From: Deltaproteobacteria bacterium
Lineage (GTDB): Bacteria; Desulfobacterota; Binatia; DP-6
Assembly: GCA_005888095.1 (NCBI GenBank)
Contig: VBKF01000159.1
Coordinates: forward strand, 1 to 62,500
DNA length: 62,500 nucleotides
Reading direction: 5' to 3'
Shown here piece after piece: positions 9,771 through 35,393 of this stretch. Position 1 is the stretch's first letter, and each line of letters starts with the position of its first letter. The notes beneath the pieces are model-generated. The model did no database searches and was not told the origin of the DNA. It saw only the letters and a list, made by a program, of their open reading frames with translations. The position numbers were made by a program, and so were the translations under genes.

Positions 9771-9855
9771 GGCACGGTGGTACGCGAGCTTTCCGCCTGC
9801 CGCAAGGCGCGGCGGTTGACTTGCGTCAGCGGCCCGGCCAACAGTGCCCGCCGCC

Positions 9856-10659
9856 ATGCCCCGCGTCCGCGCCGGCGAGCTCGAGCTCTTCTACGACACG
9901 GCCGGCACGGGCGAGCCCGTGCTCATGCTGATGGGCCTCGGCGGCGAGCATCATGCCTGGGACCTCGTGCGGCCGGACCTCGCGCGCTACCGTCTCGTCC
10001 TCCCGGACAACCGCGACGCCGGTGCGAGCGACGAGGCGTCCGGCCCCTACACGCTCGACGACATGGCGAGCGACGCCCTCGCCGTCATGGACGCGCTCGG
10101 GATCGAGCGCTTCCACGTCGTCGGCGCCTCCATGGGCGGGGCGATCGCGCAGCGCCTGGCGCTGCAGGCGCCCACCCGCGTCGCGACGCTCGTGCTCCTC
10201 GGCACGTGGGGACGGACCGACCCGTTCCTCGCCACCATCCTGGAGAGCTGGCGGCTCATGGCCGAGCGGCTCTCGGCCGAAGCGCTCTTCCGCGCGCAGA
10301 CGCCGTGGGCGTTCACCTACCGGTTCTTCCAGCACCCGTCGCCCGAGGTGCGTGCCTGGCAGGCGGCGCTCGCCGAGCGCGGGCTCCTCAAGTCGGTGCC
10401 GGCCTACCAGCGGCAGATCGACGCCTGTCTCGCGCACGACGCGCTCGACGTCGTGCCGCTGCTCCGCACCCCGGCGCTCGTGCTGGTCGGCGAGGACGAC
10501 ATCCTGACGCCGCCACGCTACTCGCGGGCGCTCGCCGCGGCCCTGCCGGGCGGGGAGGTGATGCTCGTGCCCGCCACCGGGCACGCGCTCTTCCTCGAGA
10601 CCCCGAAGCCCTGCACGGAGCGGATCCTCCGCTTCCTGGCGAAACACCCGCTCGCCTGA
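9856..10659 (+). CDS. Alpha/beta hydrolase (3-oxoadipate enol-lactonase/epoxide hydrolase-like)
   Basis: 267 residues with the ATG at 9856. A GTG at 9844 is an in-frame alternative adding four residues. Canonical layout: oxyanion region MGLGGEHHAW, the LPDNRDAGASD strand-loop, nucleophile elbow GASMGG (Ser) near residue 96, acid in LVGEDDILTPP and catalytic His in PATGHALFLETP. It resembles PcaD-like lactonases and other small-molecule hydrolases; the substrate is unknown. Divergent from the methyltransferase. Its TGA stop overlaps the first bases of the palindromic element that follows. Confidence 0.85.
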   Translation: MPRVRAGELELFYDTAGTGEPVLMLMGLGGEHHAWDLVRPDLARYRLVLPDNRDAGASDEASGPYTLDDMASDALAVMDALGIERFHVVGASMGGAIAQRLALQAPTRVATLVLLGTWGRTDPFLATILESWRLMAERLSAEALFRAQTPWAFTYRFFQHPSPEVRAWQAALAERGLLKSVPAYQRQIDACLAHDALDVVPLLRTPALVLVGEDDILTPPRYSRALAAALPGGEVMLVPATGHALFLETPKPCTERILRFLAKHPLA

Positions 10660-10959
10660 GCGCGACCCAAGACTTCTTGGGTCGCGGGCACGGACGCGAG
10701 CATGTGGCGCTCGCGTCACGCGCGACCGCCGTGCCGCGGCTGGCGAAGCCAGCGCGGCAGACGAACGCGCGCGGTTCCACGGCTGCGCAGACTGGCCCAT
10801 CGCCAACCGATGAACCTGAGCGCTGCGAGACCTCTGGAACGGCGCGTGTCCGTTCTGCCGCGCTGGCTTCGCCAGCCGCGGCAGGACAGTCGGGCGTGAT
10901 CCCGACGGAACACCCTCGCGTCCGGGTCGCGACCCAAGAAGTCTTGGGTCGCGCTCCTA
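10658..10959. repeat. Palindromic MITE/BIME-like element, copy A
   Basis: A 302-bp non-coding element between two convergent genes. Each end is a perfect hairpin with 12-bp arms (CGCGACCCAAGA and complement, loop of 2): 10661-10686 on the left and 10928-10953 on the right. Inside lie two inverted hairpins built on GCTGGC-GAA-GCCAGC, at about 10732-10759 and 10856-10883, flanking a ~96-bp core. Left and right arms are diverged inverted copies of each other, so the whole is a foldback. The left end overlaps the TGA of the hydrolase. The right end supplies the TAG of the kinase. A second copy lies at 33407-33713. No transposase is encoded. Confidence 0.85.
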
Positions 10960-11916
10960 TCCGGCGCGCGACAGCGCCCAGACGAGGAGGCCGTAGGCGG
11001 CGACCGCGCCCGCGACGGCGAGCAGCGTCCGGAGCCAGCGTGGCATCGTTGGCTTCGGGCGCTGGCGGGCCGCGCGACCGGTGATGACCACGCTCTCGGG
11101 GTGGGCGAGCGCCTCGCGCAGCTCGAGCGCGCTCTCGGGACGGTCCCGCGGGTCGCGCTCGAGCGCGTGCAGGATGATCTCCTCGAGGGCCGGCGAGATC
11201 TCGGGACGCAGGCGGCGCGGCGGCGTCGGGTCGTCGTGCAGCTTGGCACGCATCGCCGCGTAGACGTTGTCGCCCTGGAACGGCATCTCGCCGGTCAGCA
11301 TCTCGTACAGGATGACGCCCAGGGCGTAGAGGTCGCTGCGCGCGTCGCCGCGCTTCCCCTTCACCTGCTCGGGGGCCATGTAGTCCGGGGTGCCGACCGT
11401 CTGGGATAGGCCCGCCCACGTCATCTTCCTGAGCGTCGTGTCGAGCGCGATGCCGAAGTCGACGAGCTTCACGCGGCCGTCCGGCGTGACCATGATGTTC
11501 TCGGGCTTGAGGTCGCGGTGGATGACGCCATGATCGTGCAGGTAGACGAGCGCGTCGGCGATCTGGACCGCGAGCTCGACCGCGGCCGGCACGGGGAGGC
11601 GGCGCTCGCGCCGCAGGCGGTCGCGGAGCAGCTCCCCCGCGACGTACTCCATCGCCAGGTAGAGCCGGCTCTTCTGGCGCGGGCGGAAGACCTTGATGAC
11701 GGCGGGATGATCCAGGCGCTGCCCGATCTCCTCCTCACGGCGGAAGCGCTCGTGGAAGACGAGGTCGCTCGCGTACTGGAGGTGCGGCACCTTGAGCGCG
11801 ACCGGGTGCCCGTTCTCGAGGTCGCGCGCCCGGAAGATGGTGGCCATGCCGCTGCGCGCGATCACGTCGAGGAGCTGGTACTGGTCGACGGTCTCGCCGG
11901 GGGCGAGGTCTCCCAT
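10957..11916 (-). CDS. Membrane-anchored serine/threonine protein kinase (PknB type)
   Basis: 319 residues. Kinase domain about 13-270: catalytic Lys42 in VALKVP, HRDLKPEN with Asp135, DFG at 153-155, the activation-segment motif GTPDYMAPEQVKG and DLYALGVILYEMLTGEMPF. The nucleotide loop is ARSGMATIF, poorer in glycine than usual. A single transmembrane helix (LLAVAGAVAAYGLLVWAL) sits at the extreme C terminus with only a few residues beyond, so there is no PASTA or other outer sensor domain. It follows the PP2C phosphatase gene on the same strand (61-bp gap), a typical reversible-phosphorylation pair. Its stop codon lies in the end of the palindromic element. Confidence 0.92.
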   Translation of the reverse strand: MGDLAPGETVDQYQLLDVIARSGMATIFRARDLENGHPVALKVPHLQYASDLVFHERFRREEEIGQRLDHPAVIKVFRPRQKSRLYLAMEYVAGELLRDRLRRERRLPVPAAVELAVQIADALVYLHDHGVIHRDLKPENIMVTPDGRVKLVDFGIALDTTLRKMTWAGLSQTVGTPDYMAPEQVKGKRGDARSDLYALGVILYEMLTGEMPFQGDNVYAAMRAKLHDDPTPPRRLRPEISPALEEIILHALERDPRDRPESALELREALAHPESVVITGRAARQRPKPTMPRWLRTLLAVAGAVAAYGLLVWALSRAG

Positions 11917-22193: not shown

Positions 22194-22270
22194 CGGGGCG
22201 TAGCGCAGCCTGGTAGCGCACCTGCCTTGGGAGCAGGTGGTCGGCCGTTCAAATCGGCTCGCCCCGACCA
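22194..22270 (+). tRNA. tRNA-Pro (anticodon TGG)
   Basis: 77 bases including an encoded CCA. The acceptor arms CGGGGCG and CGCCCCG pair. The D-arm has TAGCGCAGCCTGGTAGCGCA, the anticodon loop CTTGGGA gives TGG, and the T-arm has GTTCAAATC. First of four clustered tRNAs after rdgB. Confidence 0.96.
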
Positions 22271-22284
22271 ACGACCAGACGCCC

Positions 22285-22358
<74 letters not shown>

Positions 22359-22407
22359 CCTGTCGCGGCGCGGAAAGCGAGGACGAGCGAAGCAGCGAAG
22401 CGAAGGC

Positions 22408-22484
22408 GGTGAGTGTAGCTCAGTTGGCAGAGCACCGGGTTGTGGCCCCGGGGGTCGAGGGTTCAAGTCCCTTCACTCACCCCA
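22408..22484 (+). tRNA. tRNA-His (anticodon GTG)
   Basis: 77 bases with encoded CCA. Acceptor GTGAGTG pairs with CACTCAC. The extra G at -1 is encoded (22408) and pairs with C at 22481, as needed by histidyl-tRNA synthetase. The anticodon loop TTGTGGC gives GTG. Third of the cluster. Confidence 0.96.
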
Positions 22485-22534
22485 AGTTCCACCCCATCTT
22501 CGGCGGGCCCGAGCGCATCGGCGCCCGCTCCTTT

Positions 22535-22607
<73 letters not shown>

Positions 22608-32434: not shown

Positions 32435-33409
32435 ATGCAGCAGGCACGCGACGCGACGAGCGGCGTGGTGGTCGCGAGCAGGCTCCGCTGCGCCGACACC
32501 CACTGGAGCCGGCTCTTCGGCCTCCTCGGCACGAAGGAGCTCCCGTCGGGCGAGGGGCTGTGGCTCAAGCGCTCGAGGCAGGTGCACATGATCGGCATGC
32601 GCTATCCGATCGACGTCGCCTTCCTGGACGACCGGCTCCAGATCCTCCGGACCATCAGCGCGCTCCCGCCGGGAACGGTCTCCCCGCGGGTCGCGGGCGC
32701 CACCAGCGTGCTCGAGCTTCCCGCCGGGACCCTCGCCGAGACCGGCCTCAAGGAAGGCGCCCGGGTGGAGATCGAGGGCGACGTCGAGCGGCCACGCGGC
32801 CATGCGGCCACGCTCACGACCGCCATCTCCAACGTGGCGCTCGCGTGCCTCTACGTCTTCTTCGCCTCCGCGCACTTCGAGTTTGCGCGCCGCACCGGCC
32901 AGTGGCGGACGGCGATGCCCATCGTCGTGCTCGAGGCGATGCTCGTCTTCCTCGCCCTCACCCGGCGCCCGAGCGTCGGGACCTCGGCACGGCCGGCGGA
33001 TTGGACCATCGGCATCGTCGGGGCCTTCGTGCCGCTCCTCCTGCGGCCGGGCGACGGCCCGGGCCCGCTCGCGCGGCTCGCCGAGCCGCTGCAGGCCGTC
33101 GGGCTGCTGATCACGCTGGCCGGCGTCCTCGCCCTCGGGCGCAGCTTCGGGCTGATCGCCGCCGACCGCGGCATCAAGACGCACGGCGTCTACCGCGTCG
33201 TCCGGCATCCGCTCTATGCCGGCTACCTGCTCGGCTACCTCGGGTACCTCGGCGTGTATCCGACCCTGTGGAACTGCGTGCTCACGGTCGCCACCGCCGT
33301 CGCACTCAATTGCCGGGCGGTCGTCGAGGAACGCTTCCTCGCGCGTGATCCGGCCTATCGCGAGTACCTGCGACGCGTCCGATGGCGCTTCCTGCCCTCG
33401 GTCTACTAG
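32435..33409 (+). CDS. DUF192 domain fused to isoprenylcysteine-methyltransferase-like membrane domain
   Basis: 324 residues. Residues ~8-110 are a DUF192 domain: RCADTHWSRLFGLLGTKE, LWLKRSRQVHMIGMRYPIDVAFLDD and SVLELPAGTLAETGLKEGARV. Residues ~125-324 form a polytopic domain ending in HGVYRVVRHPLYAGYLLGYLG and EERFLARDPAYREYLRRVRWRFLP, the RHP-Y and EE signatures of isoprenylcysteine carboxyl-/phospholipid-methyltransferase-like proteins. Both parts are usually separate proteins. It lies 10 bp behind tadC, so it may modify a lipid or envelope component linked to the pilus; this is inference. Its TAG stop is part of the palindromic element. Confidence 0.85.
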   Translation: MQQARDATSGVVVASRLRCADTHWSRLFGLLGTKELPSGEGLWLKRSRQVHMIGMRYPIDVAFLDDRLQILRTISALPPGTVSPRVAGATSVLELPAGTLAETGLKEGARVEIEGDVERPRGHAATLTTAISNVALACLYVFFASAHFEFARRTGQWRTAMPIVVLEAMLVFLALTRRPSVGTSARPADWTIGIVGAFVPLLLRPGDGPGPLARLAEPLQAVGLLITLAGVLALGRSFGLIAADRGIKTHGVYRVVRHPLYAGYLLGYLGYLGVYPTLWNCVLTVATAVALNCRAVVEERFLARDPAYREYLRRVRWRFLPSVY

Positions 33410-33713
33410 GAGCGCGACCCAAGACATCTTGGGTCGCGAACCGGATGCGAGAGTGTTCCGTCGGGATCACGCCCGACTCTCCTGCCGCGGCTGGCGAAGC
33501 CAGCGCGGCAGACGGACACGCCCGGTTTCGCAGCCGCCGCGGACAGGCCCAATCGCCAAACGGATCACATGAGAGTCGCGAGGCCTTTCGAACGGCGCGT
33601 GTCCGTTCCGCCGCGCTGGCTTCGCCAGCCGCGGCACGGCGATGGCGCGTGACGTGAGCGCCACACGCTCGCGTCTGTATCCGCGACCCAAGAAGTCTTG
33701 GGTCGCGCTCCTA
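33407..33713. repeat. Palindromic MITE/BIME-like element, copy B
   Basis: A 307-bp copy of the element at 10658-10959. Terminal hairpins at 33413-33438 and 33682-33707; both ends read TAGGAGCGCGACCC inward. Inner hairpins about 33483-33510 and 33609-33636. The outer arms match copy A in reverse complement, but the core (about 33511-33608) matches copy A in the same orientation. CTAG flanks both ends and may be a target duplication, although CTAG is itself palindromic. The left end contains the stop codon of the preceding gene. No protein is encoded. Confidence 0.85.
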
Positions 33714-35393
33714 GTGGGCGGCGATCGGGCGGACCGCCTCCGCCGGGGCCTGCTCGTCGCGCTGCTCCTCGCCGGCGGCGTGGTCTTCGCGACCATCGAC
33801 CGGGCCGACCCGGATCTCTGGGGCCACGTCCGCTACGGCCAGGACGTCCTCGCCAGCGGCCGCCTGCCGGCGACCGCCACCTACACCTACACGGCGCCGG
33901 CCCAGCCGTGGATCAACCACGAGAACCTGAGCGAGATCGTCTTTGCCTTCATGGCGGACCACGCCGGGGGCACCGGTCTCGCGGCCCTGAAATGCCTGCT
34001 CGGCCTCACGCTGCTCGGGCTGATGATCGCGGGCGCTCGGCGCCGAGGCGGCGGCATCGCGACGACCGCCGTCGCCGTGCTCCTCGTGACGTTCGCCACG
34101 GCGCCGGGCTGGAGCTTTCGCCCCCAGCTGTTCACCTACACCTTCTTCGGGGTCGTGGTCTTCATCCTCGACCGCGTCTTCGCCGACGGGCAAAGCCCGC
34201 CGGCCGACACGCGGCTCCTCTGGTTGCTCCCACCGCTCTTCACCGTCTGGGCCAACACGCACGGCGGTTTCGTCGCCGGCCTCGGCGTGCTGGCCCTGTA
34301 CCTGGGCTGCCGGGCCGCCGAGCGCCTCGGAGCGGAGGGCAGGCGAGGGCTCGCGCCCGCCGCGCTCTACGGCGGCGTCGCCCTGGCCTCGGCGCTCGCC
34401 ACGCTGCTCAATCCGTACGGCCTCGACCTCCTCACCTGGCTGGTGCGCGACCTCGGCCCGCCCCGACCCGAGATCTTCGAGTGGCGCGCGCTCTCGCCGT
34501 CCGACGCCGTCTTCCCCATCTTCGTCATCGTGCTGGGACTGACCGCCACCGCCTGGCTTGCGCGGCGCCAGTGGCGTGATCCGGCCCGCACGGTCCTGCT
34601 CGCCGCCACGGCATGGCAATGCGTCGCGCACGTCCGCCACCTGCCGTTCTTTGCGATCGCGGCGGGCTTCTGGCTGCCCGCACAGCTGCAGCCGCTGGTC
34701 GATCGGATGCGGCACGCGACCGACCGCTCGACGGCGTCCGGCCCCCGCAGGGCCGGCTGGGCGGCGTGGGGGGTCTGGGCCGTCGACCTGGGGCTCGCCG
34801 CGTTGCTCGCCGTCCACGTGCGCGGGCCGCTGGTGGAACGAAGCGTCTATCCGGTGAACGCCTTTCGCTACATGGCCAAGCGACGACTCACCGGTCGGGT
34901 CGTCGTTCACTTCGACTGGGCGCAGTACGCCATCGCCGCCTTCGGCGACGACGCACCGGTCGCCTTCGACGGCCGGCTCCGCACCTGCTACCCGCAGGAG
35001 GTCGCCGACGCCTACTTCGACTTCCTGGTGGGTGACCGGCTGATCCCGCGCTGGCGAAGCGAGCAGTCGCCGCCCGTCGACGCCACGCGGGTGCTCCGCC
35101 TCGGCGACCCGGACCTGGCCGTGGTCGCCCGCCACTTCACCCATTCCGTCGAGGTCATGGAGGCGCGTGCGGACTGGGTGCTCCTCTACCAGGACGCCGT
35201 CGCGCAGCTCTGGGGACGGCGCGACCGCTACGGCGATGCGGCGAGCCCCGACTACCTGCCCCCCGCGCAGCGCTGGATCACGGAGGTGCGCCAGGTCGGG
35301 TCCGTCCCCTGGCCGGCCCTCCCGCCCAGGCGAGTGGTCGCCAGCGCCGCGCGCCCGGCGGTCGCCGCTGCCCACGCCGCCGGCGCCGGCTGA
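33714..35393 (+). CDS. Polytopic GT-C-like membrane protein of unknown function
   Basis: 559 residues with GTG start at 33714, immediately after the palindromic element; the frame is open upstream but would translate element DNA (RPKKSWVAL), so it is cut there. About 10 membrane helices. The early loop TIDRADPDLWGHVRYGQDVLASGRLPATATYTYT and WINHENLSEIVFAF resembles the acidic first loop of lipid-sugar-using GT-C enzymes. A soluble C-terminal ~150 residues follow (VVHFDWAQYAIAAFG, VAFDGRLRTCYPQEV). Enzymatic function is unproven. It precedes another membrane protein by 10 bp. Confidence 0.7.
   Translation: MGGDRADRLRRGLLVALLLAGGVVFATIDRADPDLWGHVRYGQDVLASGRLPATATYTYTAPAQPWINHENLSEIVFAFMADHAGGTGLAALKCLLGLTLLGLMIAGARRRGGGIATTAVAVLLVTFATAPGWSFRPQLFTYTFFGVVVFILDRVFADGQSPPADTRLLWLLPPLFTVWANTHGGFVAGLGVLALYLGCRAAERLGAEGRRGLAPAALYGGVALASALATLLNPYGLDLLTWLVRDLGPPRPEIFEWRALSPSDAVFPIFVIVLGLTATAWLARRQWRDPARTVLLAATAWQCVAHVRHLPFFAIAAGFWLPAQLQPLVDRMRHATDRSTASGPRRAGWAAWGVWAVDLGLAALLAVHVRGPLVERSVYPVNAFRYMAKRRLTGRVVVHFDWAQYAIAAFGDDAPVAFDGRLRTCYPQEVADAYFDFLVGDRLIPRWRSEQSPPVDATRVLRLGDPDLAVVARHFTHSVEVMEARADWVLLYQDAVAQLWGRRDRYGDAASPDYLPPAQRWITEVRQVGSVPWPALPPRRVVASAARPAVAAAHAAGAG

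Follow-up and report, generated by a model that had tools for sequence, protein, structure and literature searches.

Copies A and B in their genomic setting

The window, the whole 62,500-nucleotide stretch of DNA that was analysed, is the entire contig C159 of a 5.46-Mb genome (G000) in 271 contigs. It carries two complete copies of a palindrome-rich element: copy A, of 300 bp (10658..10957), and copy B, of 303 bp (33409..33711), which lies in the opposite orientation, is 83% identical to A and has the same plan (no strand is assigned to the element or its parts). A is situated between convergent genes, an alpha/beta hydrolase gene (9844-10659) whose TGA stop (10657..10659, + strand) overlaps the left edge of the element, and a protein kinase gene (10957-11916) whose TAG stop (10957..10959, - strand) is made at the right edge. 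B follows a DUF192/PEMT gene (32435-33409), the stop of which is B's TAG (33407-33409), and precedes a co-directional frame without a Pfam match. Elsewhere in the window, four tRNA genes are clustered on the + strand at 22194-22607.

From the outside inward, the plan common to A and B consists of CTAG or its remnant, a 26-bp palindrome (CGCGACCCAAGA-NN-TCTTGGGTCGCG), a spacer, a bulged hairpin of 28 nt (TGCCGCG-GCTGGC-GAA-GCCAGC-GCGGCA) and a core of about 96-100 bp, after which the second half repeats the first in inverse. Throughout the family the arms are an inverted pair of ~100 bp each, every arm having the 26-bp palindrome at its outer end and the bulged hairpin further in. In A these parts are the left terminal palindrome, CGCGACCCAAGA-CT-TCTTGGGTCGCG (10661..10686), the left inner bulged hairpin, TGCCGCGGCTGGCGAAGCCAGCGCGGCA (10732..10759), a core that is mostly self-complementary in the fold of the whole element (10760..10855), the right inner bulged hairpin, an inverted copy of the left (10856..10883), and the right terminal palindrome (10928..10953); a host TA (10958..10959) adjoins the right end of the element. 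In B the left and right terminal palindromes are at 33413..33438 and 33682..33707, and the inner hairpins at 33483..33510 and 33609..33636, the right one with its outermost pair broken; the left TA copy (33407..33408) is within the TAG stop and the right TA copy (33712..33713) within a CTAG (33711-33714). The first-pass annotation, made from the letters alone, had placed both copies here and described terminal hairpins with 12-bp arms, two inner bulged hairpins around a core of ~96 bp, and left and right arms that are diverged inverted copies. This anatomy holds: both ends of A are 26-bp palindromes with 12-bp arms, its terminal 29 bp are inverted repeats with 100% complementarity, and two 71-bp stretches are 82% complementary to each other. 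Only the borders needed correction to those given above, with a host TA to the right of A and a TA on each side of B. Some reading frames stay open across A and B, as is usual at 70% G+C; read from the open frames, without a separate coding test, no coding content was seen in either of these short elements.

Folding and conserved pairing

The fold of A is a single long foldback (z -17.4 under DNA parameters, z -16.3 under RNA parameters), and none of 100 shuffled sequences was as stable under either set. Pairing across the family was assessed in an alignment of 38 non-redundant arms from six genomes (115 columns), drawn from 84 distinct arms collected by a pattern that favours paired letters yet permitted unpaired combinations. 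In the two hairpins, 99.0% of cells are paired, against 93.9 in shuffled alignments, and 53 hairpin cells are changed on both sides, against 17.4; structures slid along the same alignment are paired at only 31-42%. Counted by pairs, those changed on both sides (6, against a shuffle mean of 4.2, with 28 of 500 shuffles reaching 6) and the further pair types (9, reached by 466 of 500) are not clearly above the shuffles. The arm hairpins are kept paired by compensatory changes. Such changes do not prove selection, because in palindromes arm-to-arm template correction could also yield them. The hairpins are probably structures for recognition or processing.

Copy number and variants in the genome

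The idea of an element family, raised by the first-pass annotation, would have fallen had A and B been its only members. Nucleotide searching and an arm model instead recover many dispersed copies in the genome, 27 of them complete (21 of about 300-305 bp and 6 of about 265 bp). BLAST with A gave 71 matches, many double-counted by orientation, that resolve to these 27 elements. The arm model, at E up to 0.01, found 60 arms, 57 strong and 3 weak, and the strong ones form 27 pairs and 3 singles, namely a copy cut by a contig end (C128) and single arms on C104 and C67; incomplete forms also include solo palindromes on C93 and C94. Further copies may be lost, since contig C128 stops and contig C259 starts at a copy. 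The palindrome pattern has 57 exact occurrences in the genome and its reversed control none. When at most 3 mismatches are allowed, the 18-nt end is found 66 times (control 0). Seven of these matches are outside the family, six being members of the second repeat family described below and one, on C98, an apparent chance match inside a frame.

All but one of the 27 complete copies have a partner copy that is 97-100% identical over aligned columns, and the nearest copy to A has 89% identity. The core of A is flipped relative to its arms: the left arm is 98% like the right arm of the reference, whereas the core is 92% like that of the reference in forward and 63% in reversed orientation. This arrangement, which the first-pass annotation does not mention, is peculiar to A within the 300-bp class, the remaining 20 copies having a consistent core orientation, and an inversion between the arms is its likely origin. 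At one locus (L040, G000:C90:63558-64129), two elements of different subfamilies stand back to back with a single CTAG between them. A weak, degenerate arm of 31.8 bits (L264:1460-1561, G000:C109:28959-29060), exactly at a predicted gene end, is possibly an old decayed copy.

Taxonomic distribution

Under the arm model, with stricter filters and up to 26 scored candidates per genome, 6 of the 148 genomes from the class carry strong arms. These six belong to one family; the seventh member of that family, G003, gave no arm-model match, and G005 has at least 26 arms. BLAST matched 10 of 58 genomes, four of them (G011, G014, G044 and G056) by short matches without the hairpins, which were dropped as chance. 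Searching GTDB species genomes with the inner-hairpin pattern yielded 72 stretches, of which 67 are in MAGs of 30-cm soil samples that bear the titles Deltaproteobacteria DP_3, DP_26 and DP_23. The stretches in sister genomes contain 48 inverted pairs of about 230-420 bp, the longest measured copy being about 420 bp, and 20 single arms. One contig titled Actinobacteria AC_48 (L217, VAYC01000340.1) carries a full arm of the family and is probably misbinned from the same soil sample. Matches of 24 bases in Paraburkholderia, Clostridia, Hyphomicrobiales and Planctomycetes records were dropped as chance.

The element has no match in plasmids or phages, and its palindrome pattern has 0 occurrences in viral contigs. 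Rfam gathering matches in the window are confined to the four tRNAs, and the four weak matches on A at E up to 1 are far below their cut-offs. The first-pass annotation knew no name for the element, and none emerged from Rfam, plasmid or phage matches. The general kind of element is known; titles and abstract openings of the matches listed in the literature contain no description of this family, which is weak evidence of absence.

Empty sites and target duplication

The joined flanks of 22 copies were searched in two sister genomes, and both strands were aligned. At about ten of the 22 sites a relative lacks the element and has NTAN in place of the doubled site. The clean empty sites are those of L003 (CTAG), L011 (CTAG and CTAC), L021 (CTAG and GTAG), L022 (CTAG) and L038 (CTAC twice); those of L006 (CTAG), L036 (CTAG), L002 (CTAC), L004 (GTAG) and A (CTAT) have gaps near the junction. 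For L008, L009, L012 and L033, either a single flank matched or the alignment did not cross the junction. Some empty sites fit poorly: the junctions of L037 in G002 and L004 in G001 lack a TA, the L006 site in G001 is affected by a deletion, and the junction of L002 in G002 is not clean. Traces of other family members were found at the L031 site in both sisters and at the L034 site in G002. At occupied sites a C-TA-G-like site stands on both sides and, as it is single when empty, insertion duplicates TA (or CTAG).

The flanks favour duplication of TA (2 bp) rather than CTAG (4 bp), because the flank pairs CTAG/CTAC and TTAG/CTAG each occur once among 48 element pairs and the CTAT at the right of A is the same as the CTAT of the element-free sister, although later mutation could mimic these signs. 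In the sister genomes, CTAG flanks both ends of only 17 of the 48 element pairs.

An immobile host element with a function at gene ends, such as a bidirectional terminator or mRNA stabiliser, would also account for strong hairpins at the 3' ends of genes, in some cases of two convergent ones, and for a paired structure that is kept. We regard this as very improbable, given the absence of the element at about ten sites in sister species, near-identical copies at unrelated loci, the doubled target, and the lack of any TTTT run in A or B. A mobile element may nevertheless have a secondary effect on transcripts.

The solo palindrome on C94 is a 40-bp CTAG-palindrome-CTAG unit where G001 has a 309-bp unit at the same place, the flanks being identical at 142 of 170 and 184 of 200 positions. 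This one site points to deletion between the terminal palindromes, if the direction of change is read correctly. The gene end that holds L031 here (G000:C178:16967) has another subfamily in G001 (L113) and a solo hairpin in G002 (L102), which suggests that a single stop codon has received insertions more than once or has had its occupant replaced.

Insertion at stop codons

Genes were told from open antisense frames by codon-position G+C, and stop counts based on open frames only were discarded, because antisense frames remain open in 72% G+C DNA. TAG is present at both edges of 22 of the 27 copies, and in 21 of the 27 an edge TAG is the stop of a neighbouring gene. Counted by sides, 26 of 54 end a gene (52 of the 54 sides could be assessed), and in five copies (L003, L012, L022, L036 and L037) there are stops on both sides, ending both convergent genes. 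The window contains 12 CTAGs, of which B accounts for two. Among 33 other CTAGs of the same genome's DNA, used as a control, 7 are gene stops, 2 are inside genes and 24 are elsewhere; the excess of gene stops at the copies over 7 of 33 is significant (Fisher p 2e-5), a rough comparison as the control DNA is mostly from around copies.

Because the doubled site supplies TAG at either edge, genes remain complete when their stop codon is the target, even where one stop is common to two convergent genes. At the L022 site, G001 has one CTAG, which is the stop of both convergent genes; at the L003 and L036 sites in the sisters, the coding test was passed by one gene only. The preference for stops may reflect either the choice of target or the selective loss of insertions made elsewhere.

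A second family with a similar end

The second repeat family, found only through the resemblance of its left end to that of the first, has at least 6 copies of 125-127 bp (L259-L263; G000:C90:104626, C91:38008, C91:42597, C97:36549, C161:11959 and C191:4064). It has a left end near TAGGAGCGCGACTCGAGA, within 3 mismatches of the 18-nt end searched for the first family, GC-rich hairpins, and a right end of CTCGCTGAT-CTAG or TTAR; the end common to both families is TAGGAGCGCGACYCRAGA. By eye it is asymmetric, and as a whole it is not an inverted repeat. Of these 6 copies, 5 have a gene stop at the right edge, and 2 have one that coincides with the left edge or precedes it by 4 nt. As nearly the same left end is found at the same kind of site, the sequences suggest that one enzyme may serve both families.

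Search for a mobilising enzyme

The first-pass annotation held that the element is mobilised in trans. This is still the reading we draw from its structure and sites; the full-length relative with a transposase and the same ends that it envisaged did not appear, as no gene-bearing copy was found with the end pattern, or with the arm model in the genome itself, the 72 stretches and 31 transposase loci. In the transposase loci no arm scored above chance (best E 0.035). Possibly, the mobiliser gene has been lost from the draft MAG.

Excerpts from PMC2170065 state that IS630-type elements duplicate TA on insertion, and cite a work titled on preferential transposition of an IS630-associated transposon to TA in CTAG. 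The TA in the CTAG sites described here fits, and a MITE of an IS630/Tc1-mariner transposase, lost from the genome or unassembled, is a real possibility, though somewhat short of probable. DDE_3 (PF13358) proteins are present in G001, G002 and G003. However, the profile has no match in G000, G004, G005 or G006, and G003 has DDE_3 yet no elements. None of the six IS630-type loci of G001, G002 and G003 has the ends of the element; four of the six (L123-L126) have other, unrelated inverted repeats, e.g. GTGGATTGTCCCAAAC beside TA, and in the other two no inverted repeats were found. PF01609 (IS4/IS5, DDE_Tnp_1) has no match in G000 or G005. The PF07592 (ISAzo13) profile gave no match, nor did it match in any control, and its negative result therefore carries no weight.

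Mobilisation by a REP-associated Y1 (HUH) transposase would work differently, through single-stranded hairpins and with insertion 3' of a tetranucleotide, and the right CTAG would then be part of the element. PF01797 (Y1) matches are present in G000 (7), G001 (5) and G002 (6), and an asymmetric second family with hairpins suits this mechanism too. We nonetheless consider it unlikely. The seven Y1 loci of the genome, about 2- to 3-kb each, contain no element end and no similar palindrome, the element-rich G005 has no PF01797 match, the right CTAT of A is host sequence, the unequal flank pairs suggest a doubled TA, and the motif is CTAG rather than GTAG.

Comparison with known systems

Excerpts from PMC3116915 and PMC3733652 describe REP dimers and REPINs as inverted hairpin pairs with an outside tetranucleotide, located at gene ends, with singletons formed by deletion and with compensatory changes. 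The present element resembles the GTAG and CGTC families of these repeats in all of these respects and in its foldback. With about 300 bp and ~100-bp arms it is much longer than a REPIN, and it differs further in having CTAG and a doubled target, and in the lack of a Y1 (RAYT) gene with an adjoining repeat among the Y1 and transposase loci examined. By the features tested it is REPIN-like in anatomy and is not a REPIN.

With bacterial IS630/Tc1-mariner MITEs the element shares its short length, lack of coding content, terminal inverted repeats, multiple copies and a doubled target at the TA in CTAG, the duplicated part being probably the TA itself. It differs from them in that no parent element was found (none in the assembly or the transposase loci examined, and no IS630 element with these ends at six loci in three genomes), that each inverted repeat is itself palindromic, and that there are two more conserved hairpins and, in A, a foldback over the full length. 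Terminal self-palindromes are unusual in MITEs moved by DDE enzymes. RIME, BOX and RUP, which are from other hosts, are likewise described as intergenic repeats with palindromic parts.

The two affinities proposed by the first-pass annotation, a MITE or a large BIME-like element, have fared differently. Twenty-seven copies, empty sites, a duplicated TA/CTAG and the lack of visible coding content give good support to a MITE-like element, whereas membership of the BIME/REP group is unsupported, because the tetranucleotide is CTAG, the target is apparently duplicated and no examined Y1 locus has the ends.

Proposed mode of spread and implications

We conclude with good confidence that A and B belong to a MITE-like element that is lineage-specific and non-autonomous, and that presumably depends on a TA-duplicating transposase acting in trans. 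Such an enzyme, for which a DDE transposase of the IS630 type would fit the target best, would act on the terminal inverted repeats GGAGCGCGACCCAAGA, each running on into a 26-bp palindrome, and would insert the element at the TA of a CTAG-like site. The site is doubled, by 2 bp or, as read less readily from the flanks, by 4 bp, and the doubled site restores TAG on each side, so that stop codons survive insertion.

A bolder proposal, which we hold to be quite doubtful, is that at least two palindrome-rich families are specialised for stop codons, especially the CTAG in which two overlapping convergent genes both end, and that one enzyme outside the IS630, IS4/IS5 and Y1 classes recognises their common end as a hairpin. 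If this were true, a doubled target that remakes both stops would let the elements multiply among densely packed genes at low cost. The missing mobiliser, perhaps common to the two families, poses a concrete question in uncultured soil bacteria. The empty and filled sites between species, together with the solo remnant and the inverted core, make the life cycle of the element readable, and the family shows a transposable element multiplying in a compact genome without gene breakage.
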